Under the pieces are notes generated by a model, which saw only the letters and a program-made list of their open reading frames with translations, was not told the DNA's origin and did not search any database. This document shows positions 9,661 through 60,746 of a stretch of 64,000 bases of DNA, piece after piece (position 1 is the first letter of the stretch; the number at the start of each line of letters is the position of its first letter). Where the stretch lies: positions 1 to 64,000 of the forward strand of contig VRUD01000004.1 of the NCBI GenBank assembly GCA_019456305.1. The letters are read 5' to 3'. Position numbers and translations under genes: made by a program. Source of the stretch: Cytophagales bacterium. Lineage in GTDB: Bacteria; Bacteroidota; Bacteroidia; Cytophagales; VRUD01.

Positions 9661-9826
9661 AATATACGAATAAAAAAATGCTAATATACGAATGAATACT
9701 AATCCCGCCTTTGGCGGGACTAATAATGAAATCTATATTAAGAAGCAGAGTAAAAATATTCGTATAATTAGTATAAAGTAGTATATTAGCATTATAATTA
9801 GCATATTTGCATCGGGGATTCGTATT
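9661..9826. repeat. intergenic repeat block with a 17-nt hairpin
   Basis: Low-complexity copies of AATATACGAAT, AGTATATTAGCATTATA and related words; the second also occurs at 32281-32335. At 9703-9719 is a perfect hairpin, TCCCGCC-TTT-GGCGGGA (7-bp stem, 3-nt loop), a member of the hairpin family found inside genes elsewhere in the window. The PGI/PMI gene starts directly after the block. Confidence 0.75.
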
Positions 9827-10825
9827 ATGAAAAAATTAATATCTGGATTTAGCAAACAGCTCAAAGAAGCAATAGAAATTGGTAAGCAATTAAAACTAAC
9901 AAAACCTGGCGCTGAGATCAGAAACATCGTTGTTGCAGGCATGGGTGGTTCGGGCATTGGCGCCAATTTAGTGGAATCCTTTACCGCTGATAAATTAAAG
10001 GTTCCTTTTGTTATTACAAAAAATTATGAAATCCCCGGGTTTGTGGGCAAAAATACGCTGTTTGTAGCTTCCTCCTATTCGGGCAATACCGAAGAAACCT
10101 TATCCTGCATTAAACAAGTCCTGAATAAAAAAGCAAAAATAGTTTGTATCACATCCGGTGGAAAACTTCTGGAAATGGCAAATGAAAAAGATCTTGATCA
10201 TGCCAAAATTCCTTCGGGCATTGATTGCCCGAGAGCCTGCCTTGGCTACTCGTTTGTTCAATTGCTCTTTATTTTAAATGGCTATGGATTAATGAGCAAC
10301 AAATTTATTGATGATCTTTTAGCAAGTATAAAATTAATAGATCAACTAAGTGATAATATTCACAAACAGGCAAAGGAAATTGCCCAACGATTACATCATA
10401 AGCTGCCAATCATATATGTTGACAATAGATCAGGCGCTGTGGCTACCCGTTTTCAGCAGCAAATAAATGAAAATGCCAAGCAGATATGCCATGTGAATCT
10501 ATTCCCTGAAATGAACCACAATGAGCTTGTAGGCTGGGAGTTCCCGGAAAATATTTTTTCACAAACAGCTGTAATAATAATTCGTACCGGTTATGACCAT
10601 CCGCGAAATTCTGTCAGAATGAATATATGTAAGTCGATTTTTGAAAGAAAATGTGGTTCGGTATTAGAAATAAAAGCGACTGGCAATTCGCTGATAGAAC
10701 AATCTATCTACCTGATACATTTATTGGATTGGGTGTCTGTCTATCTTGCAGAATTGAACGAAATTGACCCGTTTCCTGTTGATATAATAAATTATTTGAA
10801 AGGAGAATTATCTAAACTAAAATAA
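9827..10825 (+). CDS. bifunctional phosphoglucose/phosphomannose isomerase
   Basis: 332 aa. SIS-fold isomerase interconverting fructose-6-P with glucose-6-P and mannose-6-P. Domain 1 has VVAGMGGSGIGANL and FVASSYSGNTEETL (sugar-phosphate binding), followed by PSGIDCPRACLGYSF. The C-terminal domain has YVDNRSGAVATRFQQQINENAK and FPEMNHNELVGWE, which carry the catalytic Glu and His of the PGI/PMI family. It would feed mannose/glucose nucleotide sugars for the polysaccharide genes. The ATG follows directly after a repeat block; no clear Shine-Dalgarno sequence, as is usual in Bacteroidota. Confidence 0.9.
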   Translation: MKKLISGFSKQLKEAIEIGKQLKLTKPGAEIRNIVVAGMGGSGIGANLVESFTADKLKVPFVITKNYEIPGFVGKNTLFVASSYSGNTEETLSCIKQVLNKKAKIVCITSGGKLLEMANEKDLDHAKIPSGIDCPRACLGYSFVQLLFILNGYGLMSNKFIDDLLASIKLIDQLSDNIHKQAKEIAQRLHHKLPIIYVDNRSGAVATRFQQQINENAKQICHVNLFPEMNHNELVGWEFPENIFSQTAVIIIRTGYDHPRNSVRMNICKSIFERKCGSVLEIKATGNSLIEQSIYLIHLLDWVSVYLAELNEIDPFPVDIINYLKGELSKLK

Positions 10826-10838
10826 AATAAATTTTTAT

Positions 10839-10846
10839 TACCTTTG
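10839..10846 (+). promoter_or_regulatory. possible -7 element giving a nearly leaderless hicB mRNA
   Basis: TACCTTTG, matching TAnnTTTG, ends 4 nt before ATG 10851. Transcription from it would start at or next to the start codon. No TTG at 19-21 nt upstream was found, so the call is weak. Confidence 0.35.
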
Positions 10847-10850
10847 AAAT

Positions 10851-11051
10851 ATGAAATATAAAGTAAATCTAAAGAAATCAGAAGAAGGTTATGCTGTATG
10901 GGTTCCAGGTTTACCTGGTTGTTGCTCACAAGGGCAAACAGAAAATGAAGCCCTGGAGAATATTAAAGATGCTATACAGGCATGGTTAATGACAGTAGAA
11001 GAACTGAATAAAGAAGAAGAATCTCGTTATGTAGAAGTAAATCATGCCTAA
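10851..11051 (+). CDS. hicB: HicB-family antitoxin
   Basis: 66 aa. Partial RNase-H-like HicB fold: KVNLKKSEEGYAVWVPGLPGCCSQGQTENEALENIKDAIQAWL, the typical GLPGC-S-GxTxEEAL pattern. No C-terminal HTH or ribbon-helix-helix domain, so it is the short class. It neutralises HicA and usually represses the operon. It overlaps the downstream hicA by 8 nt; antitoxin-first order. Confidence 0.9.
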   Translation: MKYKVNLKKSEEGYAVWVPGLPGCCSQGQTENEALENIKDAIQAWLMTVEELNKEEESRYVEVNHA

Positions 11052-11256
11052 GATACCAGGTATAAACCACAAGAGAGCTATACACGCTTTTGAAAAAGCA
11101 GGTTTTTGGATTGCAAGACAGGGAAAACATATAACGATGACCAATGGAAAACAAACTGTTACCATTCCCAGAGCAAATCCAATTAATGCTTTTACAATGG
11201 CCGATATTGTAAAAGGGTCAGGTCTAACTATTGAGGAATTTAAGAAACTTTTATGA
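11044..11256 (+). CDS. hicA: HicA-family mRNA interferase toxin
   Basis: 70 aa dsRBD-like HicA: KIPGINHKRAIHAFEKAGFW, IARQGKHITMTNG (catalytic His in the GKH position, usually GSH) and TIPRANPINAFTMADIVKGS. It cleaves mRNA when free of HicB. Coupled to hicB by an 8-nt overlap. It looks intact. A second, differently ordered HicA/HicB pair is at 20608-21011. Confidence 0.9.
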   Translation: MPKIPGINHKRAIHAFEKAGFWIARQGKHITMTNGKQTVTIPRANPINAFTMADIVKGSGLTIEEFKKLL

Positions 11257-11292
11257 GGTAAACTGTATGAATATAACTCATTCATTAAAAAA

Positions 11293-12012: not shown

Positions 12013-12016
12013 TAAA

Positions 12017-12421
12017 ATGAAAAAAGATATCTCCTTTCCACCGGTAGAAGATGTTGCGGTAGCTATAGCCCGCAAAAAGAGCAGTGTAAACAATTATGAT
12101 TGGTATGTTTTTTTGATAAATAATAATGACATAGCATTAAAAAACGTATTGGTCAGCTCCAAGGGCTATGGATACCAGGATGGTAAAGAACGTAAAACCT
12201 CTGTACTAAGGCATCTCATAAACAAATTAGAACCTCAATGCCATACTATCATAGAACCCATTGATCCCGCCATTTTCCATCTCTGTAATGAATTTTGGGT
12301 AAGCTATTACATCAAAAAGCAGATATATGATAAAAAATTTATATTTGTGCCGGAAAGTATCATTGAGAAAAATTTAATGAATATACCACAACTTAATTTG
12401 GAAGGAATCTTGCATGAATAA
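12017..12421 (+). CDS. conserved Bacteroidota protein of unknown function
   Basis: 134 aa. FPPVEDVAVAIARKK, YVFLINNNDIALKNVLVSSKGYG and SVLRHLINKLEP, then NEFWVSYYIKKQIYDKKFIF and ESIIEKNLMNIPQL. I recall close relatives across Bacteroidota that databases sometimes label phenylalanyl-tRNA synthetase alpha subunit, apparently wrongly; nothing here resembles that enzyme. No signal peptide or TM. It is 4 nt downstream of lipB. Its TAA stop shares its last base with the first unit of a heptamer array. Confidence 0.75.
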   Translation: MKKDISFPPVEDVAVAIARKKSSVNNYDWYVFLINNNDIALKNVLVSSKGYGYQDGKERKTSVLRHLINKLEPQCHTIIEPIDPAIFHLCNEFWVSYYIKKQIYDKKFIFVPESIIEKNLMNIPQLNLEGILHE

Positions 12422-12502: not shown

Positions 12503-12512
12503 GATTTTAATT

Positions 12513-12590: not shown

Positions 12591-12680
12591 GCAAAGCGCA
12601 GTGCACTTTACCCCGCCAACTGGCGGGGCCATGCGACCATACGGTCGGGCGTATGCCCGCTATGCTCTATGCGCATTACC
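12591..12680. repeat. heptamer fragments with an 18-nt hairpin
   Basis: Holds CCCCGCCA-AC-TGGCGGGG at 12611-12628 (8-bp stem, 2-nt loop) with heptamer words on both sides (AGCAAAG, GCTATGC, TCTATGC). The same hairpin recurs inside the GT2 gene (55446) and, as the reverse complement, inside the proline dehydrogenase gene (52705). Confidence 0.8.
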
Positions 12681-13403: not shown

Positions 13404-13453
13404 ATGCAGAAGTGCTAAACTATTTTTTTTATCTTTACGTAGTAAATAAAATT

Positions 13454-13885: not shown

Positions 13886-16800
13886 ATGAAATCTTCAGCC
13901 CCGTTTGAAAGGAAATTAATCCACTTCACCTTAATTTTTATAATTGTTGTTGCAGCAGGATATAAATTATTCACTGTAGTGAACGACCCCCAACATCATC
14001 GGGAAGTGCAACGTGTGCGTTCACTACAATATGATGAACAGAACATGCTAACCTTTCCTAAAGGCAGCAATTATGAAAAAGAGTGGCAAAAAGTTGACTC
14101 ATTAACAAAAAAAGGACTGAACAAATCAGCCCTCAAGGCTGTAAATGCTATTTATGCCAAAGCAAAAGCAGAGAACAATGCTCCCCAGTTTGTAAAGGCA
14201 GTTATCCACAAAATGAAGTTCAGGTCTGCCATTGAAGAAGATGCTGTTGTAAAATCAGTCATTGAACTTCAGCAGGAAATAGAAAGTGCCTCATTCCCTG
14301 TAAAGCCCGTGCTGCACTCTATGCTGGCAGAGATCTACTGGAGTTATTATCAGCAAAACCGCTACAAGTTCCTGAATCGTTCAGAAACCCTCAATTTTGA
14401 CCAGGAAGATATCCATACCTGGGGCCTCAAAAAAATTGTCAAAGAAGTTATAAAAAATCATCACTTCTCTCTCCGAAATACAGACAGCCTGAAAAGAACT
14501 CCCCTGAATATCTATGACGAAGTTATTCATTCCCCCCTTACTAAAGGGAGGTCTGGGGGTGACAAGGTGGTATCCAGAAAATTAAGGCCTACCTTATACG
14601 ATTTTCTTGCACATCGTGCCGTTGATTTTTATATGAATGAGGAATCATCATTGACCAAACCTGCTTATAAATTTGAACTTGACAGTAAAGAGTATTTCCA
14701 ACCAGCCGGCCAATTCGTAAATCTTTCCATTACAACCAAAGATTCATTATCCTTAAAATTCTATGCAATCAATATTCTACGGGATTTATTAGAATTTCAT
14801 TTAGAAGATCAGGATCCTGCTGCTTTAATTGATGTGAATTTAAAAAGATTGAAGTTTGTCCATGATCATGTAATCATTGAAAACAAGGATAGCCTGTATC
14901 TTCAAGCCTTAGAAAAATTTGAAAACAAGCACAAAGTACACCCCGCTTCAACAAACGTCTCTTACCAGGTTGCAAATCAATATTTCCTGAAAGGTGAGAA
15001 ATATAACCCCAGGCAATCTGAAAAGAATAAATGGGATAAGAAAAAAGCATTAAAAATATGTGATCGTGCCATCAAGCGTTTTTCGGAGGCAGGTGGGGCT
15101 AAAAATTGTAGGTATCTGATCGCCAGGATAAAAGAAAAAGCATTGTCCTTTACGATTGAAAATGTAAATCTTCCCGATAAACCTTTCAGGGCGCTGGTAG
15201 CATACAAAAACGTGGAAAAGATATATCTCCGCGTTGTAAAGACTGACCGGGCAGAGATAAACAGCCTCAAGCAAGGTTATAGCTACCAGAAAAATCTGCT
15301 TGATCATTATTCAAAGAAGAGATCAATACATAGTTGGTCAATTACTTTACCTAATGACAAGGATTTTCAAAAACATTATGTAGAAATAAAGATACCGGCT
15401 CTTGAAATTGGCCAATATGTAATTTTAGCAGGAACAGATGAGAAGCTAAGCTATCACGAAAATGCTGTTGCCTACACATTTACCACCGTCTCCAATATCA
15501 GCTACGTTTTCAGGCGTGTCCCGAACCCCGCCAAAGGCGGGGAGGGAACTTATGCTGGGTATGATCTATACGTAATGCACCGGCAACATGGAACACCATT
15601 GCCTAATGTAAAAGTCCAGGTATGGTATAAAAAGTACAACTATAAATTAAGAAAATATGAATCCACTACAGGAGGTATATTTACTACCAATGATCAAGGC
15701 TATTGCCGCATTCCTGCCAGTAAGAAAAGGCACAATTTTTACCTTGAATTTATAAAGGGTGAGGACAAGGTTTTTACAGATAATTCATTTTATAATTACG
15801 GCTATTATTCTCCTAAAGAAAAAAAACATTTGAAAACGATATTCTTTACCGACAGGTCAATTTATCGTCCGGGGCAAACTATCTATTTCAAGGGAATAAT
15901 GATTGAAACAGATGGAGAAACCAATAGCATCAAAACCAAGCAAACTACAACTGTATCCCTTCTTGATGTAAACTATCAGAAAATAACCACCTTAAACCTG
16001 GTTACCAATGAGTACGGTACTTTCAGCGGTTCATTTACCGCCCCTACAGGTGTACTAACCGGCCAGATGCATATTCAAAACAGTTCAGGTTCAGTATATT
16101 TTTCTGTGGAAGAATATAAACGCCCTAAATTTGAAGTTACCTTCAATCCTGTAAAAGGCAGCTACAAATTGGGCGGGAATATTTTGGTTACCGGGACTGC
16201 AAAGGCGTATGCAGGCTCCAACATAGATAATTCAGAAGTCAGATACCGTGTTGTTAGAAATGCCCGGTTCCCTCCCTGGTGTTATTATTGGTTCAGGTAT
16301 ATCCCCCCTTCCCCGGAAATGGAAATAGCCAACGGTGTTACGAAAACAAATGAAAAAGGGGAATTTGAGATAAATTTCAAGGCGATCCCTGATCTGAATA
16401 TTTCAAAAAAACTGCATCCTACATTTACTTATACTGTTTATGCAGATGTTACCGACATCACCGGAGAAACCCGGAGTGCACAGCAATACGTGAACGTTGG
16501 TTATACCGCTTTATTAATAGATGTAAACATACCGCAAGAATTAAACAAAGAGCAGGAACAGGAATTTAAGATCACCACTACCAATCTCAGCGGGGAATTT
16601 GAACCTGCAAAAGGCACTATTGCTATATTTCAATTACAAGAACCAAACCGCATTTATCGTAAACGCCTTTGGGAAAAGCCCGATAAGTTCATCATGAATA
16701 GGCCGGAATTTTATTTCAACTTCCCGAATGATGTTTATGATGACGAAAATAATATCTATAAATGGGAGCGTGCGAACAAAGTACATGAAACCAAATTTGA

Positions 16801-19800
16801 CACAGATAAGGAAAAAACAATTGTGCTAAACAATATTTCTACCTGGAAGCAGGGCAAATATCTGATGGAACTAATTTCAAATGACAAATATGGGGAAGAA
16901 GTGAAGCAGATAAAATACTTTACGCTCTATTCCACAAAAAATAAAAAGCCGCCATACAAAACAATAGATTGGTTCTCTGTACTTAATTCCAAAGCAGAGC
17001 CGGGTGAAAAAGTACAAATACTGATCGGTTCAGCAGAAAAGGATGTACATGTACTCTACGAAATTGAACATAAACAAAACATCATTAGCAAAAAATGGCT
17101 CACTTTAAGCGGCCAGCAAAAATTGATTGAAATACCCATTGAAGAAAAACACAGGGGCAACATAGCCGTTCATTTTACTTTTGTCAAAAACAACCGCATC
17201 TACCGGCACGACCACGTCATCACAGTTCCCCGGACCAATAAGGAGCTTGATATTGAATTTGAAACTTTCAGAAATAAACTTTATCCCGGTCAAAAAGAGG
17301 TGTGGAGGATCGTAATTCGGAATGGTATTCCGTCCAACGAAGCCAACGAAGCCGATAAAATAGCCGCAGAAATGGTCGCCACCCTATACGATGCTTCCCT
17401 TGATGCTTTCAGACCCCACAACTGGTATTTTGATATTTACAAAAATTACTATTCAACGCTCACATGGCAAAGCAGCAATGTTTTTGCGACCCGGAATTCA
17501 ACCTTATATCAAACAAACTGGAACCTCTATCCGGGATTTATTACCACCTACTATGACCGGCTAAACTGGTTTGGCTTTAGCTTTTATTGGGGGAGGTACC
17601 ACATATATAGAAAAGGAGCGGTTAGTTTAGCTTTAGATGCAACGGCAGGAGTGTATTCTGCAGATGAGACAGTTGAGGCAGAAATGGCTGATGAAACCAA
17701 AGTAATAACTAAAAAGATAGCAGGAGCCACTGCTCCAACAGATAAAGACACAGAATCCTTTGCATGGAATGGGCATGCCCGTTCACCAAAAGGGAAAACA
17801 GGTGGTAAGATGGCAGCCATCAAAGCCCGCACCAACTTCAACGAAACCGCCTTCTTCTACCCACACCTTAAAACCAATGAAAAAGGAGAAATAATCATTG
17901 CCTTCACCATTCCCGAAGCGCTGACAAGGTGGAAAATGATGGGTTTTGCCCATACCAAAGACCTGAAATATGGTTTTGTACAGGAAGAATTGATCACTCA
18001 AAAAGAATTGATGGTGATGCCCAATGCCCCGCGGTTTTTCAGAGAAGGAGATCATATTACCTTCACAGCCAAAGTTTCCAATGTTTCTGAAAAAGACCTG
18101 TCCGGAACGGCTCAATTGATGCTCTTTGATGCCCTCACGATGAAACCGGTTGATAATGAGTTAAAAAACACAAATGCCACTATAAAATTCAAAGCCAAAA
18201 AAGGGCAAAGTGCTGGTTTAAACTGGGATCTGACAATCCCGCAGGGGATCCAGGCGGTAACTTACCGTGTGGTAGCCAAAGCAGGTAAATTTTCTGATGG
18301 TGAGGAAATGGCGATCCCTGTATTGACCAACCGCATATTGGTTACCGAATCGTTGCCGTTGCCCATAAGAGGCAAGGGGAGTAAGAATTTTACCTTCAGT
18401 AAATTAGTAAACTCCGGCTCTTCCGTTACCCTGCGCAATCATAAAGTAACGCTGGAATTTACTTCCAATCCTGCCTGGTACGCCATCCAGGCATTGCCCT
18501 ATTTGATGGAATTTCCTTATGAATGCACCGAACAGGTTTTCAGCCGCTACTATGCCAACAGCATCGCTTCGCATATTGCAAATTCAAGTCCCAAAATAAA
18601 GCAGGTTTTTGATAGCTGGAGATCAAGTGCACTTGCTTCAACGAACGATGCCATCGCTTCGAGCGATGGCATCGTTAATTCACTTTTATCTAACCTGGAG
18701 AAAAACCAGGAATTGAAATCGATATTATTAGAAGAAACCCCCTGGGTATTAAACGCGCAGAATGAGACCGAAAGAAAAAAACGGATTGCTCTTTTATTTG
18801 ACTTAAACAAAATGGCAAATGAATTGGGTATAGCTTTTAAAAAGCTGAAAGAAGCACAGGCCTCCAATGGCGGCTGGCCCTGGTTCAAAGGAATGCCCGA
18901 CAGCAGGTATATTACCCAGCATATTGTGGCGGGTTTCGGACATCTGGATCATCTGGGTATTACAAACGATGCCATCGCTTTAAGCGATGGCATCGTTAAA
19001 ATGTTAAACAACGCTGTTCGCTACCTTGATGACAGGATAAAAGAAGATCATGAAAAATTAAAAAGGCACGCAGATAGATCAAAAGACCCTGACTATATGG
19101 ATAAAAACCACCTTGGTTCAACCCAAATTCATTATTTATATACCAGAAGCTATTTTTGGGACAAAGTTGAAATTTCGTCAAAAAATAAAGAAGCATTTGG
19201 TTATTACAAAGGCCAGGCGAAAAAATATTGGCTCTCTAACAATAAATACCTGCAGGGAATGATAGCACTCGCATTGCACAGGTTTGGAGAGAAAAATGTC
19301 CCTACGGATATCATTAAATCTTTAAAAGAAAACGCTTTACATTCCGAAGAGATGGGTATGTATTGGAAAAATATGGATTTTGGCTATTACTGGTACCAGG
19401 CGCCCATAGAAACACAAGCGCTTTTGATTGAGGTTTTTGACGAAGTAGCCGATGACAAAAAAGCAGTTGAAGACTTGAAGGTATGGCTTTTAAAACAAAA
19501 ACAAACACAGGATTGGAAAACCACCAAAGCCACCGTTGAAGCCTGTTATGCCTTGTTATTAAGGGGCGGTGACTGGTTAGATACAGAGCCATCAGTTAAA
19601 ATAAAATTGGGTAAAAAAATAATTGACCCGGCAAAAATGGATGATGTAAAAGTAGAAGCCGGAACCGGCTACTTTAAAACTTCCTGGACAGGCAGTGATA
19701 TTGTACCTGAAATGGGTAATATTACCGTTACAAAATATGTCCCGAGCGTTAGCGAGGGACCCCCCGGAAAAAGCGAGGGAACTGGAAGCGTATCATGGGG

Positions 19801-35469: not shown

Positions 35470-35591
35470 TTACTTTATAAAAGCATTTTTATAATTTTTC
35501 CAATTTTCATTAATGTCTTCGTCTGCAAATGGAAATTAGGAATTGGATTATACTATTTTCCCTGCCTGCGCTGATCCCGAGTTACTCGGGA
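35470..35591. repeat. gene remnant and 17-nt hairpin
   Basis: On the minus strand, 35470-35532 reads FADEDINENWKNYKNAFIK and stop, the tail of an unknown gene. At 35575-35591 lies a perfect hairpin TCCCGAG-TTA-CTCGGGA, flanked by CCTGCC and GGCAGG, so it sits inside an outer imperfect palindrome. Confidence 0.7.
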
Positions 35592-38027: not shown

Positions 38028-38972
38028 ATGGAAATATTCTATAAACCTCACGCTCTAAAAGAATATTTAGCAAAAAAAAAGCGAAGTTCAAAGGCAATTG
38101 GCTTTGTACCAACGATGGGTGCATTGCACCAGGGGCATTTGTCATTGGTTCAGGCCTGCAAAAATGATCATGATATCACGGTTTGCAGCATTTATATTAA
38201 TCCCCTCCAGTTTAACGTCAAATCAGATCTGCAATCCTATCCCAGAGATATTGACAAGGATAGTGAATTATTAAAAAAAAATGAATGTGATGTTTTGTTC
38301 TGCCCGGATGATCGTATTATATATCCTGAATCGCTATTGGTAAAGTTTGATTTTGGTTATTTAGACACGATTATGGAAGGAAAACATAGACCAGGACATT
38401 TTAGCGGTGTTGCCACAATTGTCTCAAAGTTATTCAACATTATAAAACCTGATGTTGCTTATTTTGGTCAAAAGGATCTGCAGCAGTTTATCATATTAAG
38501 GCAATTGGTCAAAGATCTTTCTTTCGGTATAAAATTGGTTTGCTGCCCGGTTGTGCGTGAAAATGATGGGTTGGCAATTTCTTCAAGAAATATTAGATTA
38601 AGTAATGAAGCCAGGAAAATAGCTCCCAATATTTATAAAGCGCTTGTTTTAGGTAAAAATTCTTTAGTACGGATTGTTAAGCATCAGCGAAATCCCGCCT
38701 GTCCCCCCGGGTTACCCGGGGAGGATAATATCGGGGGTAATCAGTCAGCTCTAATAGAAAAATTACAAATCAATCATATAATTAAAGATACTAAAAAAAA
38801 AGTTAAAGAGTTTATTTCTCAGTTTCGGGGTATTGAACTGGAATATTTCGAAATTGTAGATGGTGAAACTTTGAAAATATTAAAGGATATAAAAAATCAT
38901 CATAAAATTGCACTGTGTATAGCGGCCTTTGTAGGTAATGTTAGGTTGGTTGATAACTTAATGATAGAATGA
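38028..38972 (+). CDS. panC: pantoate--beta-alanine ligase with an insert
   Basis: 314 aa versus about 282 in the family. Last step of pantothenate synthesis. VPTMGALHQGHLSLVQACK (HIGH-like), FNVKSDLQSYPRDIDKD, FGQKDLQQFIILRQ and AISSRNIRLSNEARKIAP (KMSKS-like) are all present. The surplus lies at about residues 222-240 (RNPACPPGLPGEDNIGG), read from a C/G-rich palindrome including 38705-38721, in the C-terminal domain, away from the active-site motifs. In many Bacteroidota panD follows panC; here it does not. Confidence 0.95.
   Translation: MEIFYKPHALKEYLAKKKRSSKAIGFVPTMGALHQGHLSLVQACKNDHDITVCSIYINPLQFNVKSDLQSYPRDIDKDSELLKKNECDVLFCPDDRIIYPESLLVKFDFGYLDTIMEGKHRPGHFSGVATIVSKLFNIIKPDVAYFGQKDLQQFIILRQLVKDLSFGIKLVCCPVVRENDGLAISSRNIRLSNEARKIAPNIYKALVLGKNSLVRIVKHQRNPACPPGLPGEDNIGGNQSALIEKLQINHIIKDTKKKVKEFISQFRGIELEYFEIVDGETLKILKDIKNHHKIALCIAAFVGNVRLVDNLMIE
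38705..38721. repeat. 17-nt hairpin inside panC
   Basis: CCCCGGG-TTA-CCCGGGG, perfect 7-3-7. It is the C/G version of the 55202 hairpin (TCCCGGG-TTA-CCCGGGA): the outermost pair differs on both sides. Confidence 0.88.
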
Positions 38973-41525: not shown

Positions 41526-41817
41526 TGTAGCAACAATTTAATTACGCAATATTGTAATCATAAAATATATTATTTCATTGTTCAATTGTTAAGATGGTTA
41601 TATGGCTTTATGGCAACTAAATTGCCAGCAATTAAGCAGCGAGTTTAAACCTATTAGATTAGAGACGCCCAAATTGGGCGTCTCTAATCTAATCACAAAC
41701 CATTTAACCATATAGCCATATAACCATTTGTTGATTAATAACGAAAGAATCTATTTATTACGAATTCATAATTCGGGAAATTCGTAATTCGTAGGGCTAA
41801 TATTCGTAATTCGTAAA
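41526..41817. repeat. nested repeat block
   Basis: Three layers. Outer: TATATGGCTTTATGG-type words near 41590-41615 and inverse CATATAGCCATATAACCAT near 41708-41727. Inner: a perfect 20-bp stem with a 1-nt loop, left arm 41653-41672 (ATTAGATTAGAGACGCCCAA), right arm 41674-41693. Then ATTCGTA heptamers at about 41760-41815 reaching the next ATG. No gene. Confidence 0.85.
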
Positions 41818-48477: not shown

Positions 48478-49821
48478 TTAACATATTTGTTGCAACCCTA
48501 ATATCTTACTATAGTAAATCAACGAATCTCTGATATCATCTTTTGAAACAAAATTATCAAACGAAGCTTTACCAATTTCCTTCAGTAATGTACAGTTTAT
48601 TTTGCCATTTTCATTTTTCTTATCCTGTAAAGTAATTGAAATAATATTTTCAAAATCTGCTTCATCAATTTCTATCTTGCCAAATGTAGAAATAATATAA
48701 TTTGTAATGCTGGATAGTTCATCTTTTGAGACCATGCCTCTTTGGTGGGAAATAAAGCTTTCGCAGACGATGCCAATAGCTATGGCTTCACCATGGCGTA
48801 AATTATTTGGTGATTTGATGATTTGGTGATTTGATGATTTGTTAACTGCCGGCTGCCGACTGCTGACTGCCGACTGCTGACTGCCGACTGCCGGCTGCCG
48901 ACTGCTGACTGCCGACTGCTGACTGCCGACTGCCGGCTGCTGACTACCGACTGCCGACTGCTGACTACCGACTGCCGACTGCCGGCTGCTGACTGCCGGC
49001 TGCTGACTGCTGACCGCTGACTGCCGGTTGCCGACTGCCAGTTGCCGGCTGCCGACTGCCGACTGCTTATTGGGATTTGTTCGCTCAAGATAAAAACTTT
49101 CCAGCGCATGGCCAATAGTATGTCCGAAGTTCAATACCTTTCTTAATCCTTTTTCTTCCGGATCATTTTTAATAATGGCTAATTTTACATCAACAGAGTG
49201 GGTAATAAGGGCTTCCCAATCCTGATCCTCTAAACCTTTTTGTGATATTTCGTTCCATTTTTGCCTGTCAGCGATCAAACAATGTTTGATGATCTCTGCA
49301 AAGCCGGATAATTTTTCTTTTTTATCAAGCGTTTTCAGAAAGCCTGGATAAATGAACACGGCTTCGGGGTCTTTGAACAGCCCGATATGATTTTTGTAAT
49401 TTTGAAAATCCACCCCTATCTTTCCGCCTATGCTTGCATCTACTTGTGCCAGGAGCGTAGTGGGAACCTGAATAAAGGCAATGCCCCGTTTAAAGGTAGC
49501 TGCACAAAAACCTCCCATGTCCCCAATCACACCTCCGCCAAGGTTAATGATCAGCGATCTCTTGTCAAAATGCAGATCGGTGAGTTGCTGCCATATATTT
49601 TCACAAGTGCTTAGGTTTTTATGATGTTCACCACTGGGGATGGTTATAATTGAAGATTGAAGATTGACCTGCCCCGACAAAGTCGGGGCGATTGACGATT
49701 GAAGAATAGGAAGGCAAAATTTTTGGGAGTTTTCGTCAGTGATTACAGCTATTTTTGTAAAATGTTTTTTATTTAGAAAAGCGTTAAGGTCTTTTAAACT
49801 TTGTTTGCCGATAGAAAGCAT
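48478..49821 (-). CDS. aroB: 3-dehydroquinate synthase with a large repeat insert
   Basis: 447 aa; AroB is normally about 350. Second step of the shikimate pathway. NAD/phosphate motifs LIINLGGGVIGDMGGFCAAT and QVPTTLLAQVDASIGGKIGVDF are intact. Zinc-ligand region: LNFGHTIGHALES (His234/His238 in this numbering) and LRHGEAIAIG (His343), normally about 16 residues apart. Between them are about 90 residues of QSAVGSRQ-type low-complexity sequence encoded by 32 heptamers plus NHQIIKSPNN from an octamer repeat. A second insert (about residues 45-55) is read from a 17-nt hairpin. Both inserts keep the frame. Order aroB - M16 - DAHP synthase. Confidence 0.9.
   Translation of the reverse strand: MLSIGKQSLKDLNAFLNKKHFTKIAVITDENSQKFCLPILQSSIAPTLSGQVNLQSSIITIPSGEHHKNLSTCENIWQQLTDLHFDKRSLIINLGGGVIGDMGGFCAATFKRGIAFIQVPTTLLAQVDASIGGKIGVDFQNYKNHIGLFKDPEAVFIYPGFLKTLDKKEKLSGFAEIIKHCLIADRQKWNEISQKGLEDQDWEALITHSVDVKLAIIKNDPEEKGLRKVLNFGHTIGHALESFYLERTNPNKQSAVGSRQLAVGNRQSAVSSQQPAVSSRQSAVGSQQSAVGSQQPAVGSQQSAVSSRQPAVGSQQSAVSSRQPAVNKSSNHQIIKSPNNLRHGEAIAIGIVCESFISHQRGMVSKDELSSITNYIISTFGKIEIDEADFENIISITLQDKKNENGKINCTLLKEIGKASFDNFVSKDDIRDSLIYYSKILGLQQIC
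48806..48837. repeat. octamer array inside aroB
   Basis: TTTGGTGA and TTTGATGA alternating, four units, directly beside the heptamer tract; encodes the HQIIKSPN part of the insert. Confidence 0.8.
48846..49069. repeat. 32-unit heptamer array inside aroB
   Basis: I aligned every unit: 32 consecutive 7-mers (CTGCCGA, CTGCTGA, CTGCCGG and minor variants such as CTACCGA, TTGCCGG) from 48846 to 49069 with no insertion or deletion. Total 224 nt, which is not a multiple of 3. All the units are free of stop codons in the aroB frame; another frame on the same strand is open too. Confidence 0.95.
49649..49711. repeat. ATTGAAG heptamers and 17-nt hairpin inside aroB
   Basis: ATTGAAG, ATTGAAG, ATTGACC at 49649-49669, then CCCCGAC-AAA-GTCGGGG at 49672-49688 (perfect 7-3-7), then ATTGACG, ATTGAAG. 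On the aroB strand this encodes the QSSIAPTLSGQVNLQSS segment absent from typical AroB. Confidence 0.85.
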
Positions 49822-52334: not shown

Positions 52335-53540
52335 ATGAATGCGTCTGATAACCTCACTTTCGAAGATACCTCCATCGCTTTTGCTTCAAGATCTGATCCG
52401 GAGCTAAGAAAAATGCATCTCCTTTTTAGGCTTATGAATGATCAATTGCTTACAAAAGTAGGTACTTTTTTTATTAAATCTGCCTTCATGCTTCATTTTC
52501 CCATAAAATTGTTGGTAAAGAAAACAATATTTGAACATTTCTGTGGAGGCGAAACAATTAAAGCATGTGAAAAAACTATCAAAGAATTAGCAAAATATAA
52601 TATTAAATCTATCATAGAATACTCCGTTGAGGCATCAAAAACCGAAGCAAGTTTTGAAAAGACCGCTCAAGAGATCATCGCAACATTTCAAAGAGCAGGG
52701 AGCACCCCGCCAGTTGGCGGGGCCATGCGCCTCCCGTTCTGTGTTTTTAAAGTTACTGGCATTGTATCAATAGAACTATTAGAAAAAATTCAGCAAGGCG
52801 CTCATCTTACTTCATATGAACAGAAAGCATTCTTTCAAACTAAAAAGAGGATTATTAATATTTTTAACAAAGCCTATGAGTATGGCGTCAAAGTGCTTAT
52901 TGATGCAGAAGAAAGCTGGATCCAGGATTCCATTGATTTTATAGCTGACAGGATGATGAAAAAGTATAATAAAGAGCAGGCTATGGTTTACAACACCTAC
53001 CAGATGTATAGGTGGGACAGACTTGAGGTAATAAAAGAAGCATACAACAGCGCTGAAAAAGAAAAATATTTCATTGGTGCAAAATTAGTACGCGGAGCAT
53101 ATATGGAAAAAGAAAGGGCAAGGGCAAAAAAGCAAGGCTGCAAAAGCCCCATATATGCTGATAAACAGGGAACTGATGAAGCATTTGACAACGCCTTATC
53201 TTTTTGCATTGACCATATTGAAAGGATCGCAATTTTTTCAGGAACCCATAATGAACAGAGTTGCTATCACCTTGCTCAATTGATGAATAAAAACAACATT
53301 GCTCCTGATGACTCTCGTGTGTATTTTGCACAATTATATGGAATGAGTGATCATATTTCCTATAATCTGACCAGGGCAGGTTATAATGTAGCTAAAACCA
53401 TTGCTTATGGACCTGTAAACCTGGTACTACCTTTTCTTATCAGGCGTGCCGAAGAAAATACGGCAATCACAGGGCAAAGCAGCAGGGAATTGCAGCTTAT
53501 TAAAAAGGAGATGAGGCGGAGAAAGGAAGAAAAATTTTAG
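52335..53540 (+). CDS. proline dehydrogenase with an insert
   Basis: 401 aa, single-domain PRODH (no P5C dehydrogenase part). FAD enzyme oxidising proline. Barrel motifs: YSVEASKTEA, VLIDAEESWIQDSIDF, NTYQMYRWDRLEVI, GAKLVRGAYMEKERARAKKQG and FSGTHNEQS, YGPVNLVLPFLIRRAEENTA. At about residues 120-132 an in-frame insert (AGSTPPVGGAMRLPF) is read from an 18-nt hairpin (52705-52722) and its flanks. The insert interrupts FQRAGS...FCVFKVTGI between two secondary structure elements. Confidence 0.92.
   Translation: MNASDNLTFEDTSIAFASRSDPELRKMHLLFRLMNDQLLTKVGTFFIKSAFMLHFPIKLLVKKTIFEHFCGGETIKACEKTIKELAKYNIKSIIEYSVEASKTEASFEKTAQEIIATFQRAGSTPPVGGAMRLPFCVFKVTGIVSIELLEKIQQGAHLTSYEQKAFFQTKKRIINIFNKAYEYGVKVLIDAEESWIQDSIDFIADRMMKKYNKEQAMVYNTYQMYRWDRLEVIKEAYNSAEKEKYFIGAKLVRGAYMEKERARAKKQGCKSPIYADKQGTDEAFDNALSFCIDHIERIAIFSGTHNEQSCYHLAQLMNKNNIAPDDSRVYFAQLYGMSDHISYNLTRAGYNVAKTIAYGPVNLVLPFLIRRAEENTAITGQSSRELQLIKKEMRRRKEEKF
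52705..52722. repeat. 18-nt hairpin inside the proline dehydrogenase gene
   Basis: CCCCGCCA-GT-TGGCGGGG, the reverse complement of the intergenic hairpin at 12611. Flanks GGGAGC and CGCCTCCC extend a second, outer imperfect stem. Confidence 0.88.
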
Positions 53541-53558: not shown

Positions 53559-54248
53559 TCATTTAACACGTTCAGGGTTTTCTTTAATAAACGATTCCCA
53601 GCTTTTGGTTTTCCTATTGTCTGTAATATCATCCTCTTTACTTTTTATTTTATCGTTTTTACTTGTATAATAATGACACACAGCAACTGCTAAAGCATCG
53701 GTTGCATCAAGAGCCCCCTTATCAGCCCCCCCAAAATCCTCTCTCCCTTCATTCCTTCCCGAAATGGTGAATGGATGAATGGGTGAATCGGTGACTCGCC
53801 TTCCCCGTTTCTCCGATTCAGGGGAGCTTGGAGGAGGGCTAATGGTTTGCTCAAGCATACTTGCCACCTGCTCTTTGGAAGCGTTACCGTTACCTGTTAC
53901 CACTTGTTTGATCTTTCTTGGAGCATATTCAACTATTGGTATATCACGTGAAATGGCTACAGCAATAACCACTCCCTGAACCCTGCCTAATTTTAACATG
54001 GATTGAACATTTTTTCCATAAAATGGCGCTTCAATAGCCATTTCATCGGGTAAATATTCTTTAATTAGCTGAATAGTTCCCTCATAAATTTTTTCTAATT
54101 TTATGGCATGGTTGCTGTATTGGCTTAAATGTAACACACCCAACTGTATAGCTTTAATCCCGGCAGGACTTGCCTGAATGATACCATAGCCCATGATGTT
54201 GGTACCGGGGTCAATGCCCATAATTATTTTGTCGTTATCTTTGTGCAT
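53559..54248 (-). CDS. ruvC: crossover junction endodeoxyribonuclease RuvC with an insert
   Basis: 229 aa; RuvC is usually 160-190. Holliday junction resolvase. Catalytic acidic residues: MGIDPGTNIMGYG (Asp), AIEAPFYGKNVQSMLKLGRVQGV (Glu), and DATDALAVAVCHYY (Asp, Asp). Between VASMLEQTI and GALDATDA, residues about 135-178 (SPPPSSPESEKRGRR...FGGADKG) are extra and repeat-derived, on the loop immediately before the last two catalytic Asp. A C-terminal basic tail is present (KSKEDDITDNRKTKSWESF). Convergent with PRODH. Confidence 0.93.
   Translation of the reverse strand: MHKDNDKIIMGIDPGTNIMGYGIIQASPAGIKAIQLGVLHLSQYSNHAIKLEKIYEGTIQLIKEYLPDEMAIEAPFYGKNVQSMLKLGRVQGVVIAVAISRDIPIVEYAPRKIKQVVTGNGNASKEQVASMLEQTISPPPSSPESEKRGRRVTDSPIHPFTISGRNEGREDFGGADKGALDATDALAVAVCHYYTSKNDKIKSKEDDITDNRKTKSWESFIKENPERVK
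53713..53842. repeat. in-frame repeat cluster inside ruvC
   Basis: C-rich segments (AGCCCCCTTATC, AGCCCCCCCAAAATCC, CCTTCATTCCTTCC) and GGAGCTTGGAGGAGGGCT surrounding GAATGGATGAATGGGTGAATC words. It is about 130 nt, boundaries uncertain. The motif types resemble those in the O-antigen ligase insert at 59371. Confidence 0.6.
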
Positions 54249-54280: not shown

Positions 54281-55690
54281 ATGATCGAACTTTTTACTAT
54301 TTACTATTTACTTTTCACTTCTTTATTAATAATATTTTACATTTTTTATTTATTCAGGATGTTGTTAGTGTGGCGGGGCATGCCTGACTATGAATTTGAC
54401 AGTGATATTCCTCAAACCACCGCCATTTCAGTAATAGTTCCAGTAAGAAATGAAGCAATAAATATTTTTTATTTACTTGAAGATCTGAACAGGCAGGACT
54501 ATCCAGTGCAAAATTTTGAAGTGATCATTGTGGATGACAATTCGGAAGATGATACAATTAAAATTGTTAATGAATTTTCAAAAAAGGCATTATTTACGTT
54601 AAGAATATTTGCTTTAAAGGAAGAAGGGATAGCCTCGCCCTCACAGGAAGCAGGGACTCGTCCCGATTATATTCCCCCCGAGTTACCCGGGGGTGCAGGC
54701 GGGATAGGCAGCGACATGCCTTCAGGTAAGAAAAAAGCAATTGAGACTGGTATCAATTATGCATCCGGAGAATTGATCGTTACTACTGATGGGGATTGCA
54801 GGTTAAATCCAGGATGGTTAAGTATTTTGCAGAATTTCTATGTTTCTAAAGCTGCAAAATTTATTAGTGCTCCTGTTAGCTATTTTACCGTAGAGCACAG
54901 AATGTATAGCCCCGCCACTGGCTTGGCTATGCCCGACACAATGCAGGCGATTGAATTTGCAGGATTAATTGTTATAGGCGCAACTTCAATTGCTAAAAGA
55001 AGTCCTAATATGTGTAATGGCGCTAACATAGCATATCCGAAAAAAATATTTTATCAAGTCAATGGATTTGAAGGAAACATAAACGTTGCATCGGGTGATG
55101 ATGAGTTTTTAATGCACAAAATCTATGCGCATGGCGCAAAGCGCATAGCCCCGCCGGTAGAGACGCCCAATTTGGACGTCTCTACCGGCGGGGCTATGCG
55201 CTCCCGGGTTACCCGGGACTCTTTGCGCCATGCGCACGTGTATTTTTTGAAAAACAGGGAAGCAATGGTTTTTACCAAACCCGCAAAGAATTTATCTGGC
55301 TTTATTGCGCAGAGAATGCGCTGGGCTGGTAAATGGGCACATTATGCTGATATTAAAGTAAAGCTCCTGGCAATATTTATCTTCAGTGTTAATTTTTGCC
55401 TGATGGCAAGCATAATTTTTATTATAATCAATCAATACTGTTTTGCCCCGCCAACTGGCAGGGTAGAGGGCGGCATAGTGCAGAACGCTATGCCCTATGC
55501 GCTATGCACTATGCTCCTTAAGGTGTTTGCTGAATTCGTATTTTTAAAGACGGTAATGAAATTCTTCTCCAAAAGGTTTAATTACCTTGCTTTTGTATTG
55601 ATTGAATTAATTCATCCCTTTTATGTTGTATTTTTGGGGTGTTTGAGTAATTTGGGCGGTTTTTGGTGGAAGGGGAGAAAAGTAAGATGA
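54281..55690 (+). CDS. family 2 glycosyltransferase with three repeat inserts
   Basis: 469 aa. N-terminal TM (LFTIYYLLFTSLLIIFYIFY), then GT2: SVIVPVRNEAINIFYLLEDL, VIIVDDNSEDDT, TTDGDCRLNPGWLS (D-x-D), SGDDEFLMHKI, AQRMRWAGKW (QxxRW), then C-terminal TMs (LLAIFIFSVNFCLMASIIFI, LAFVLIELIHPFYVVFLGCL). Processive or polyprenyl type transferase. In-frame extras: about residues 117-143 (SPSQEAGTRPDYIPP), about 282-318 (AHGAKRIAPPVETPNLDVST), about 389-411 (APPTGRVEGGIVQNAMPY). The catalytic motifs remain. Part of the right-hand surface polysaccharide block. Confidence 0.92.
   Translation: MIELFTIYYLLFTSLLIIFYIFYLFRMLLVWRGMPDYEFDSDIPQTTAISVIVPVRNEAINIFYLLEDLNRQDYPVQNFEVIIVDDNSEDDTIKIVNEFSKKALFTLRIFALKEEGIASPSQEAGTRPDYIPPELPGGAGGIGSDMPSGKKKAIETGINYASGELIVTTDGDCRLNPGWLSILQNFYVSKAAKFISAPVSYFTVEHRMYSPATGLAMPDTMQAIEFAGLIVIGATSIAKRSPNMCNGANIAYPKKIFYQVNGFEGNINVASGDDEFLMHKIYAHGAKRIAPPVETPNLDVSTGGAMRSRVTRDSLRHAHVYFLKNREAMVFTKPAKNLSGFIAQRMRWAGKWAHYADIKVKLLAIFIFSVNFCLMASIIFIIINQYCFAPPTGRVEGGIVQNAMPYALCTMLLKVFAEFVFLKTVMKFFSKRFNYLAFVLIELIHPFYVVFLGCLSNLGGFWWKGRKVR
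54630..54710. repeat. first palindromic insert in GT2
   Basis: GGGAC-TC-GTCCC at 54653-54664 and CCCCCGAG-TTA-CCCGGGGG at 54675-54693 (one mismatched pair). Reads as in-frame SPSQEAGTRPDYIPPELPGG. Confidence 0.75.
55126..55236. repeat. nested palindrome insert in GT2 (111 nt)
   Basis: Outer arms TGCGCATGGCGCAAAG (55126-55141) and CTTTGCGCCATGCGCA (55221-55236), a 16-bp inverted repeat. Inside: a 30-bp stem (55141-55170 with 55172-55201, one mismatch, 1-nt loop) built from GCGCATAGCCCCGCCGG + TAGAGACGCCCAA, and a 17-nt hairpin TCCCGGG-TTA-CCCGGGA (55202-55218). Total 37 codons, in frame. Confidence 0.92.
55446..55514. repeat. third insert in GT2
   Basis: CCCCGCCA-AC-TGGCAGGG (one mismatch) at 55446-55463, same as 12611. 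Then GCATAGTGCA (55473-55482) pairs with TGCACTATGC (55505-55514), the latter part of an array of GCTATGC-type heptamers. Confidence 0.8.
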
Positions 55691-57642: not shown

Positions 57643-57736
57643 AATAATTTTATAAGAAAGCAGATAGTCATTTAATTTTATTCAATCAGTAGAAAAGGGA
57701 CATCAAAATCCAGAATGAACAAATATCCAATATTTA

Positions 57737-59029
57737 ATGTCTGATAACCAACATCCACCATCCAAGATCCAATATCCAATAAAAGACCAGCTTGCATTAA
57801 AACAACTGGAGTTGAATTCTATCCTTGAGATAACCCAGGCTATCAATAGTAATCTGCCAGAACCTTCATTGTACAAAATCTACCAATTTACGCTAATGGC
57901 AAACTTAAATATTGAAAAACTTGCTTTGTTTGTTTTAGATGATAAGTGGATTTGTAAAGTGAACTTTGGCACAAAAAGAGATTATTCCAACGTACAATTA
58001 AATGATCATATATTAGGTATTAATGAGATTACCTCTTTGAAGCATGTGGAAGAGGGTGTTGGTGAAAGCGGGATTACGCGACCTAGCCTTCACCGGCACC
58101 ACTATCAGGAATTTGAGGAGTTTGAGATAATTATTCCTGTTTTACATAAAACAAATGTTTTGGCGTATACTTTTCTTGGTGGATTTTCCGGCAAGCAGCC
58201 CCGGGTACCCGGGGTCAATTTATCTTTTATAGAAACATTTACCAACATTATCATCCAGGCCATTGAAAATAAAAAATTTGCCAGAAAGCAAAGACGTCAG
58301 GAAGCTGAAATTCAAGTAGCCAGGGAAGTTCAGGAAATGCTTTTCCCTGAAAAACTGCCCTATAACAAAAAATTAAAGGTTTTTGCCTCATATATTCCTC
58401 ACCAGGAAGTAGGGGGAGATTATTATGATTTCATTCCTATAAATTCCGATCAGTTTCTTCTCTGTATTGCTGATGTTTCCGGAAAGGGAATACCTGCAGC
58501 ACTGTTGATGTCAAATTTCCAAGCTTCATTAAGGACTTTAATTCGCTTAAAGAATGATTTAAAAGAAATTATTACAGAATTAAACTATATAACATTTCAT
58601 AATTCAAAAGGAGAAAGATTTATAACTTGTTTTATGGCAATTTTTGATAAAAAAACGCTTAGACTTACTTATATCAATGCCGGCCATCCCCATCCTTTAC
58701 TTTTATCAGAAAATAATAGTATAATTTATCTTAAACAAGGAACCACTGTTCTGGGCGCTTTTGATAAACTACCTTTTATTAATAAGAAAAATTTAATTTT
58801 GGATAGCGGCATGCTGCTGTTTACTTATACCGATGGATTAACCGAACTAAACGATGATCAGGATCAGGAGTTTGGTATTGCCGGTATAGAATCATTTATT
58901 AAAAAAGCAGACAGATCAGATTTACGGGTATTACACAGAAAATTGATAAAGCATTTAGATACTTTCCGCGGGGATCGGGATTATAAAGATGATGTAACTA
59001 TCCTCACCTGCAAATTTGGCAGCGAATAG
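57737..59029 (+). CDS. PP2C-type (SpoIIE/RsbU) serine/threonine phosphatase
   Basis: 430 aa. N-terminal sensor-like part (ILEITQAINSNLPEPSLYKIYQFTLMANLNI, GAF-like) then a coil (AEIQVAREVQEMLFPEKLP) and PP2C-SpoIIE domain about 215-425: HQEVGGDYYDFIPI, ADVSGKGIPAALLMS, YINAGHPHPLL, FTYTDGLTEL, DRDYKDDVTILT. The metal-binding Asp residues are present. Residues 4-15 (NQHPPSKIQYPI) come from a heptamer array (57748-57782). Two further inserts: about 107-120 (VGESGITRPSLHRHHYQ) and about 155-160 (KQPRVPG, read from 58199-58214). Stop codon overlaps AGCGCAT. Confidence 0.9.
   Translation: MSDNQHPPSKIQYPIKDQLALKQLELNSILEITQAINSNLPEPSLYKIYQFTLMANLNIEKLALFVLDDKWICKVNFGTKRDYSNVQLNDHILGINEITSLKHVEEGVGESGITRPSLHRHHYQEFEEFEIIIPVLHKTNVLAYTFLGGFSGKQPRVPGVNLSFIETFTNIIIQAIENKKFARKQRRQEAEIQVAREVQEMLFPEKLPYNKKLKVFASYIPHQEVGGDYYDFIPINSDQFLLCIADVSGKGIPAALLMSNFQASLRTLIRLKNDLKEIITELNYITFHNSKGERFITCFMAIFDKKTLRLTYINAGHPHPLLLSENNSIIYLKQGTTVLGAFDKLPFINKKNLILDSGMLLFTYTDGLTELNDDQDQEFGIAGIESFIKKADRSDLRVLHRKLIKHLDTFRGDRDYKDDVTILTCKFGSE
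57748..57782. repeat. CCAANAT heptamer array at the PP2C start
   Basis: CCAACAT, CCACCAT, CCAAGAT, CCAATAT, CCAATAA: five heptamers, reading as codons 4-15 of the PP2C gene, 8 nt after the ATG. Confidence 0.88.
58055..58100. repeat. possible palindromic insert in PP2C
   Basis: GGTGTTGGTGAA (58055-58066) pairs with TTCACCGGCACC (58089-58100), 10 of 12 positions. Confidence 0.5.
58199..58214. repeat. 16-nt hairpin inside PP2C
   Basis: CCCCGGG-TA-CCCGGGG: like 38705 but with a 2-nt loop. Confidence 0.85.
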
Positions 59030-59162
59030 CGCATGACCCCGCCTCCTAGTGTTAAATTGCATAAATAATCTATATAATTGAATTTAAGCCTCAAAACCTG
59101 TTTGCAAATCTATAGAAAACTTACGCAACTAAACACTGGTGGGGGCATGGGGTATGGTGCAT
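59030..59162. other. intergenic region between convergent genes
   Basis: Heptamer fragment at the PP2C stop (AGCGCAT at 59028-59034), GCGCATGACCCCGCC, and near the end GTATGGT-GCATTCA-GAACGCT. No gene. Confidence 0.5.
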
Positions 59163-60746
59163 TCAGAACGCTGACAAATGCGAGTCTATTTCAATAAATT
59201 CTCTGCGCTCTGCATCCAGCCACAGATCCAGCTTTGCCAGAATAACCGCCGAGATAAAAAATATGGACGCCACTTTATCTACTTTCATAAAATCTGCCAA
59301 AAACAGATGAATAATGATAATAATGAAAGAAAGCAATGCAGCCATGGCGATAGCAGCAGAAGCTCCCCCTAAATCCCAAGCCCCCCTAAATCCCCCCGAA
59401 GGGGGGACTTTGCCAGCCCCTTTCCCTCTTGGCGTGGTTAAGGGATGGCCAGTTCTCCCCCTTTTGGGGGGAGTTAGAAGGGGGCTGGACTGCAGGCTGG
59501 CATGGTAAATTTTTGTCCCCCTGGTAAGTACTATTATGATCCACATAACAAATAACAATAATCCAACCATTCCCTGCTCTGTTAGTATAAGTAAGTAATT
59601 ATTATGGGTAGTGGACTTTTCAGGGTTATCACTTACGTAGGTTGCGAATGAACTTACAGTATATTTTTTGTATTCAGGATAAAATGTGTTTGGACCTGTA
59701 CCTGTAACAGGTCTATCTAAAAACATATGATAAGAGGCCACCCAGCGGTATATACGTTCCATACCTGAAATATCTTCCATTGTATAGGTTGCTTCTAATT
59801 TTTTTTCAAATTTTCTATGAGATACTGTTTTTTCATACTTGGGTGAGTAATCTAAATATTTATTTTCATTTAGAAGATAAGCAATAGCAACTATGATTAC
59901 AATACCAGATAATAAAAGGACTTTTTGGGTCAATAAATGGTGTATCATAAAGTATGAGCAAAAAGCAAAAATAAGTGCTATCCAGGAAGCACGGGTGTAA
60001 GAAAAAATTATTGCAAAAATGAAAAAATATCTACTGAACGATAACAATGTATATTGGAATGATTTTTTTTTATAAAGTCCTCTAAAGTACCATACAAATG
60101 GAAGAAAAAGAGCAATAGTGATTGAATAATTTACATGGTTTTTGAAAAAAGGAACAGTAAAATTATTTATTGTATCAAAAGAGAACCCCTCGAAGGCATG
60201 CCTGACAGAAGTTTGAACTATTGCTATAAGTAATCCCGCGTAAAACCACCAAAATATTTTTTTAATATCCTCACGGGATTGAATTATCTGGCCTGTTAAA
60301 AGCACGAATGCTGTAATATACCAGATTTTGGAAAGTAAATATTTAACAGAGACAAACCAGGAAGTGGAGAACAGAACAGGGATCAGCAACCATATTAATT
60401 GCAAAATGACCAAAAATATGAATGGATGTAAAAGGAATTTAGTATCAAATTTTCTTGCTGCTATTATATCAATAAAATAAACCGCGGTTAAAACTATCAT
60501 CAGGGGTTCCGAAATCAGATCAATAGAAAAACCACCGGGCAGATTTATTTCTATAGATAAAGGTATAGAGAATATTAGAAGATAATATATAATTTTGTAA
60601 TCAAGAATAACCAGAAAAGTGCCTAATACAAGCAAAGGGATAATAAATAGTTCATATAATTCAAATATTATCCCCAGAGATGTACTTAACAAAAGGATTG
60701 CAGCCAATGAAATGAAGAGGATTCTTTTATTGTTCCATTGTTTCAT
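59163..60746 (-). CDS. O-antigen ligase / polymerase-like membrane protein with an insert
   Basis: 527 aa. About 10-12 TM segments with the Wzy_C pattern: a large loop between EDISGMERIYRWVASYHMFLDRPVTGTGPNTFYPEYKK and STTHNNYLLILTEQGMVGLLLF (H-x-x-x-L). Joins polysaccharide to lipid A core or polymerises it. In-frame insert about residues 415-465: SSPLLTPPKRGRTGHPL, PRGKGAGKVPPSGGFRGAWD, GGAS, read from C/G-rich palindromes. The insert is in a cytosolic or periplasmic loop between TMs. Forms an operon with Wzz (20-nt gap). Confidence 0.88.
   Translation of the reverse strand: MKQWNNKRILFISLAAILLLSTSLGIIFELYELFIIPLLVLGTFLVILDYKIIYYLLIFSIPLSIEINLPGGFSIDLISEPLMIVLTAVYFIDIIAARKFDTKFLLHPFIFLVILQLIWLLIPVLFSTSWFVSVKYLLSKIWYITAFVLLTGQIIQSREDIKKIFWWFYAGLLIAIVQTSVRHAFEGFSFDTINNFTVPFFKNHVNYSITIALFLPFVWYFRGLYKKKSFQYTLLSFSRYFFIFAIIFSYTRASWIALIFAFCSYFMIHHLLTQKVLLLSGIVIIVAIAYLLNENKYLDYSPKYEKTVSHRKFEKKLEATYTMEDISGMERIYRWVASYHMFLDRPVTGTGPNTFYPEYKKYTVSSFATYVSDNPEKSTTHNNYLLILTEQGMVGLLLFVMWIIIVLTRGTKIYHASLQSSPLLTPPKRGRTGHPLTTPRGKGAGKVPPSGGFRGAWDLGGASAAIAMAALLSFIIIIIHLFLADFMKVDKVASIFFISAVILAKLDLWLDAERREFIEIDSHLSAF
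59371..59490. repeat. palindrome cluster inside the O-antigen ligase gene
   Basis: TCCCCCC-GAA-GGGGGGA at 59391-59407 (perfect 7-3-7) and CTCCCCC-TTTTG-GGGGGAG at 59455-59473, between AGCTCCCCCTAAATCCCAAG and TTAGAAGGGGGCTGGACTG, which are themselves inverse-like. One outer palindrome with two inner hairpins. Confidence 0.82.

Follow-up and report, generated by a model that had tools for sequence, protein, structure and literature searches.

REPs that lie within genes are known, as are CGTC repeats in Bacteroidetes (PMC3733652). The GTAG and CGTC REPs, which include RPE-4, RPE-6 and dRS3, are short palindromes with covarying stems that occur as several subfamilies per genome, both between and inside genes; those of the CGTC type have been reported in Bacteroidetes and without a dedicated transposase, and the origin of REP-like palindromes that lack one is an open question, stated as such for the CGTC repeats (PMC3733652). 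The subclass 2.6 tnpA genes of Bacteroidetes (RAYT group 5) are accompanied by atypical dispersed structures (PMC6006769), and Rickettsia palindromic elements of 105–146 bp insert into proteins (reviewed in PMC2229807). The GC clusters of yeast mitochondria, which merge and shuffle (PMC4478555), and the organelle palindromes of Volvox (PMC2670323) are short, GC-rich units in AT-rich DNA. Finally, hairpins are known to arise and to be maintained through template switching (PMC8794818), which also homogenises their arms and inverts their spacers (PMC8604942).

The bacterium studied here carries hundreds of 16–18-nt self-complementary sequences, here called tips, both between and inside its genes. 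They resemble the GTAG and CGTC REPs in being short palindromes with covarying stems, in their several subfamilies per genome and in lying both between and inside genes, the subclass 2.6 structures in phylum, in their dispersed copies and in the presence of one such tnpA gene near two tips, and the organelle elements in being short, GC-rich units that merge and shuffle in AT-rich DNA. Unlike those REPs, they have no such tag at the foot, a 7-bp YCCC stem with a loop of 2–4 nt, and a mode of spread that is replacement rather than plain insertion; a CGTC REP has a loop of 4–5 nt and a stem of 8–9 bp whose first two pairs are A-T (PMC3733652), whereas the tips begin Y-C-C-C without A-T first pairs. 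They are much shorter than the Rickettsia elements and have defined ends, though they are sometimes nested in composites of about 50–130 nt, and where GC clusters show AG/ACT duplications, tips replace 3–15 nt. The preliminary description knew of no account of such a family in Bacteroidota, and the literature that we searched likewise yielded none of the tip sequence family or of replacement-type spread; a parallel in Neurospora was also sought there, and no paper was found.

The window, a 64,000-nt stretch (positions 1–64000 of contig C4), belongs to a 4.25-Mb draft genome in 159 contigs, from which we sampled 1.63 Mb as stretches (L-numbered loci) and searched the remainder by pattern. All seven perfect 7-3-7 hairpins listed in the preliminary description are present in the window, as are the six relatives of 16–19 nt that it placed at 12611, 52705, 54675, 55446, 58199 and 59455 (Table 1); those at 12611 and 52705 are 18-nt CCCCGCC-AACT/AGTT-GGCGGGG, that at 58199 has 16 nt and a 2-nt loop, and those at 54675, 55446 and 59455 are imperfect. 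The hairpins are thus real, and comparison with shuffled sequence shows them to be far too frequent for chance. Perfect YCCC...GGGR 7-3-7 hairpins number seven in the window and none in 100 simulations under a first-order Markov model of it; an initial 844-kb sample of this genome contains 176 hairpins whose inner 7 bp include five or more G/C, where second-order Markov sequence gave 6; and genome-wide there are 175 YCCCG-N7-CGGGR sites as against 5 for the reversed control pattern.

Table 1. Tips and related features in the window, in window coordinates.
Feature	Position	Strand	Remarks
Tip TCCCGCC-TTT-GGCGGGA, intergenic	9703..9719		Empty counterpart L022:2570 has TGATA in place of the 17 nt; flanks 59/60 identical
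Tip CCCCGCCAACTGGCGGGG, intergenic	12611..12628		ATGCGC-word context
Tip CCCCGCC-AAA-GGCGGGG in alpha-2-macroglobulin gene (13886-20275)	15526..15542		
Tip TCCCGAG-TTA-CTCGGGA, intergenic	35575..35591		At apex of CTGCCTGCGCTGA...CGGC.GGCAGG
PanC extra segment, aa 213-255	38664..38792	+	Contains hairpin 38705-38721, CCCCGGG-TTA-CCCGGGG, in composite ATCCCGCCTGTCC[tip]AGGATAATATCGGG
Related element: palindrome GAGACGCCCAAATTGGGCGTCTC centring a perfect inverted repeat	41652..41693		Empty counterpart: arm shorter, imperfect
CCTG-tagged tip (acctg)CCCCGAC-AAA-GTCGGGG in aroB (minus-strand gene 48478-49821)	49672..49688		Variable N-terminal stretch
PRODH segment with 18-nt tip 52705-52722	52695..52730	+	Net +6 aa (+18 nt) vs most of 45 orthologues
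GT2 insert 1 (gene 54281-55690), imperfect tip 54675-54693	54626..54718	+	About 20-28 aa absent from orthologues
GT2 insert 2, nested palindromes and tip 55202-55218	55133..55237	+	About 30 extra aa
GT2 insert 3, imperfect tip 55446-55463	55442..55504	+	About 10-17 extra aa
Tip CCCCGGG-TA-CCCGGGG in PP2C/SpoIIE gene (57737-59029)	58199..58214		Length-variable loop, 0-5 aa net
C-run/G-run hairpin pair (TCCCCCC-GAA-GGGGGGA and neighbour) in O-antigen-ligase gene	59391..59474		Separate class, 22-member context

The notion of a single 17-nt family stood only in part: 7-3-7 hairpins do exist, but they belong to a set of subfamilies whose commonest form is the 7-2-7 perfect palindrome TCCCGAGTACTCGGGA, with 63 copies in the 1.63-Mb sample and 144 exact copies genome-wide. 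The others are CCCCGAGTACTCGGGG, YCCCGRG-TTA-CYCGGGR, YCCCGCC-AAA-GGCGGGR, CCCCGCC-AACT-GGCGGGG, YCCCGAC-AAA-GTCGGGR, YCCCGAT-n-ATCGGGR and the C-run/G-run hairpins, to which, and not to the main family as first proposed, the pair at 59391 and 59455 belongs. Since each stem triplet prefers its own loop, we regard the subfamilies as lineages. The claim that stem bases vary in pairs is upheld beyond shuffling, all three stem-triplet pairs being Watson-Crick at 109, 90 and 68 sites with loops of 2, 3 and 4 nt as against 47, 18 and 12 expected. Such compensatory changes, together with perfect pairing and GC-rich stems, might suggest functional RNA structures (terminators or processing signals) selected for folding, and some copies do lie within terminator-like hairpins, for example L010:17340. 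That explanation is nevertheless very unlikely, since many tips are within ORFs, 144 exact 16-mers are not a product of convergence, and gene orientation at intergenic tips equals that at random intergenic positions; placement as intrinsic terminators was rejected on the convergent, divergent and tandem fractions, which are 0.16, 0.16 and 0.69 at tips and 0.16, 0.16 and 0.68 at random. Selection for the fold, as proposed in the preliminary description, is not required, because template switching pairs arms by mutation alone (PMC8794818) and arms here have been perfected at single sites. That compensatory stem changes can arise by mutation calls for caution when functional RNAs are called from covariation.

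The exact TCCCGAGTACTCGGGA 16-mer, with its 144 copies here, is found 0–1 times in each of 395 other Bacteroidota genomes, and a looser pattern in 294 other Bacteroidia is well below its level in this genome or equal to the control, the largest low-background excess being 48 versus 2. These counts support a lineage-specific tip family. With proline dehydrogenase as the probe for close relatives, the best outside match among 84,980 genomes was 56% identical (Rhodocytophaga), and the relative searches returned no genome from the same family.

The manner of spread was read from repeats that occur both with and without a tip. When the flanks of each tip were sought across the sampled genome (30+30 nt, matching at at least 44/60), 24 repeat families were found in which one copy carries a tip and another carries 3–15 other nucleotides at the same place, these pairs being paralogous repeats of one draft genome rather than orthologous alleles, and some filled copies sharing their tip by descent. 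In the best pairs the flanks match at 60/60 (L020:732 and L186:12227; L158:1789 and L031:6487; L163:2748 and L183:1849; L165:4854 and L170:15878), and the replaced sequences include CAGGGTTTTG, CAGTCG, CACTCG and CAAAGACG. In one dispersed repeat, ATCATTAG[..]TTAGCAT, the same position holds any of four different tip types or a 14-nt AT-rich segment; likewise, other copies of the context of the tip at 35575 contain TCCCGCCTTTGGCGGGA or AGCTT. Tips thus replace host letters between constant borders rather than simply inserting, which is an uncommon way for DNA to spread. Empty copies are more numerous and more varied than filled ones, from which we infer that the change ran from empty to filled. 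The filled and empty copies within one genome give exact boundaries as well as showing replacement, and so make the copying mechanism testable.

The preliminary description called for a search for insertion boundaries and any target duplication; among repeat copies within the genome we found instead a unit that substitutes for 3–15 nt. Direct repeats of 4 nt do stand beside tips more often than expected (11 versus 0.9), but the excess comes largely from one context in which the empty copies already carry them, and the filled/empty pairs show no general target-site duplication. Membership among MITEs, considered on the basis of such duplications, was rejected given the 3–15 nt replaced. Our early idea that every tip occupies a hairpin apex was also abandoned: certain host sites consist of tandem 7-nt arrays, and the replaced stretches do not clearly exceed the sequence around them in unpairedness (0.54 versus 0.50).

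About half of the perfect tips (116/233) stand in shared contexts, copying extends to the host repeats as well, and the flanks bear apparent signs of inverted spacers and perfected arms. These observations might be taken to mean that there is no mobile unit at all, and that the tips owe their spread solely to dispersed repeats that recombine and undergo gene conversion with one another, together with template switching at the local level. We consider this unlikely, as the identical 16-mer occurs with exact ends in many unrelated families that share no flanks, and also in unique contexts and in genes.

The families of the tip-bearing genes were confirmed by Pfam. At the point where 2ejc has 11 residues PanC has 43, PRODH is longer by 6 residues than most of the 45 aligned orthologues and by 5 than some, and the GT2 protein has three extra segments without counterpart in orthologues; in the second of these an ACGCCC-type core lies within a CCCCGCC stem within ATGCGC words, and the predicted fold of 55121-55253 around it has an energy of -100.8 kcal/mol. 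The insertions in conserved genes that were proposed at the outset, with Rickettsia palindromic elements as the parallel, are therefore borne out at PanC, PRODH and three GT2 sites, where in-frame segments are absent from orthologues, but not at two others: compared with orthologues, the AroB hairpin stretch shows almost no net length change, and the PP2C hairpin lies in a naturally length-variable loop with no clear net insertion. Tips thereby show how palindromic segments are accommodated by conserved enzymes. The several in-frame additions to conserved genes also make an assembly or amplification artefact of this metagenome-derived draft extremely unlikely, as do the covarying subfamilies and the non-random depletion in ORFs of the frame-breaking tip (below), even though the genome is in 159 contigs and inverted chimeras arise from amplification. 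In the 1.63-Mb sample TCCCGAGTACTCGGGA lies in ORFs in 17 of 63 cases versus 50 expected, while GCC and GRG-TWA tips in ORFs are near their expected counts. Such scarcity is as expected if the change of length usually breaks the frame, and it agrees with selection against frame shifts, though it could have other causes. Two further gene segments in the window were noted: AroB carries, separate from the hairpin, an insertion of about 92 residues of SAVGSQQ-type repeats (48802-49095, minus strand) built of CAGTCGG words, which also make up intergenic arrays, and RuvC has a proline/glycine-rich extra segment (53715-53843, minus strand) that resembles another repeat insertion.

In the leading alternative, the tips would be REPs that a REP-associated tyrosine transposase (RAYT/TnpA Y1) moves in trans, binding the single-stranded hairpin, cutting it at a tag and joining it to another site. 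The genome has seven Y1_Tnp matches. One of these tnpA genes (L006) is subclass-2.6-like, with NHFH and YIHQNP motifs, and two GAG-TA tips lie upstream of it, within 300 bp, while a single tip lies about 100 bp downstream of a subclass-1.2-like tnpA; atypical flanking structures and dispersed copies are known for subclass 2.6 genes (PMC6006769). Tips share the high copy number of REPs in the broad sense, and among 107 non-GAG-TA tips 15 have the tetranucleotide CCTG immediately 5' of the foot, versus 0.8 expected, whereas none of 86 GAG-TA tips has it, which hints at recognition of a tip subset by a protein. The described REP tags, however, are not enriched: CGTC-type tags (CGTC/TGTC/CCTC) stand at the hairpin foot in 2 of 233 tips versus 2.9 expected (8 at offset 1), GTAG/GTGG stand 5' of it in 1 of 233 versus 2.8 expected, and a GTAG tag is carried only by a separate GTAGAGACGCCC element. 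A REPtron has the same REP flanking a RAYT gene; the L006 tips lie on one side only, and most tnpA loci bear other hairpins, for example TCGCTCCTAACGGAGCGA and ACACCTCGTTTCAACGAGGTGT. Nor is the association conserved with the closest tnpA relatives examined, since in a same-order genome (L228) a tnpA of 56% identity has a flanking hairpin unrelated to tips and the other relatives have none. To our knowledge, replacement of 3–15 nt is not the described Y1 pattern. Mobilisation by such an enzyme therefore appears rather doubtful. As separate observations, the L228 tnpA has long AGGTGTCCTACACCT hairpins on both sides, possibly a REPtron of its own, and the subclass-2.6-like tnpA gene at L007 (G000:C27) is lengthened by in-frame TCATCCGATGA-type palindromic repeats.

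That the hairpins are a copied DNA unit, as was first suggested, agrees with the lineage-specific family, the exact 16-mers, the filled/empty pairs and the copies in conserved genes. We see about an even chance that the tips are lineage-specific, REP-like dispersed palindromes (16–18 nt, YCCC-NNN-loop-NNN-GGGR) that spread as units with defined ends by replacing 3–15 nt. The likely route would be replication-associated copying: after stalling and pairing with itself, the nascent strand would move to another template, pick up the palindrome there as a patch and rejoin a few nucleotides further downstream; new sites would often lie within other repeats and at hairpin centres, intra-hairpin template switching would then keep or make the arms complementary, and the tips would be nearly neutral. 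We favour this route with moderate confidence because known REP tags and Ku are absent, most tnpA loci have other hairpins, and the reverse transcriptases present in the genome have nothing that ties them to tips; Ku-dependent end joining is unlikely since a search of the genome found no Ku gene.

Template-switch mutations at hairpins (PMC8794818, PMC8604942) account, with no need of selection, for perfect arms, for compensatory changes and for inverted spacers. Some cores here centre longer inverted repeats that are unique to their site, the extended arms being perfected site by site at the DNA level; of 14 cases of the ACGCCC core, 8 have perfect arms of at least 12 bp, and at L168:16381 the arm of the empty copy is shorter than in three filled copies, as would be expected from template switching. 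Template switching by itself leaves unexplained how a single defined 16-mer came to be dispersed among unrelated sites. Such a 16-mer without co-transferred flanks goes beyond the ordinary outcome of template switching and may require an enzyme or template dedicated to it. A tentative further possibility is that the tips represent mobile DNA of a new kind: a palindrome of 16–18 bp and nothing more, with no transposase, tag or target duplication, placed as an exact unit by a dedicated substitution mechanism that replaces 3–15 nt at many unrelated sites, hairpin centres and conserved genes among them.

Several other repeats were noted. The 16S (L042:12731) and 23S (L042:16541) rRNA helix tips are both TCCCGACTTGTCGGGA, identical to dispersed tips in L021; we claim no insertion in either the 16S copy, in helix 6, or the 23S, the 16S copy fitting the Rfam model without extra length. 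A MITE-like repeat whose terminal sequence is GGGCATCTCTAAAAACTACA and whose core is CCCCTCTATCAAGAGGGG occurs at L009:3628, L010:18870, L015:52 and elsewhere, 20 of them in one context; its core has 21 matches in the sample, 0 of them in ORFs. At L022:11914, a TCCCGAG-TA-CTCGGGA tip has a GTAG-tagged GAGACGCCCAAATTGGGCGTCTC (the ACGCCC element) nested in its centre, bordered by TA on either side.
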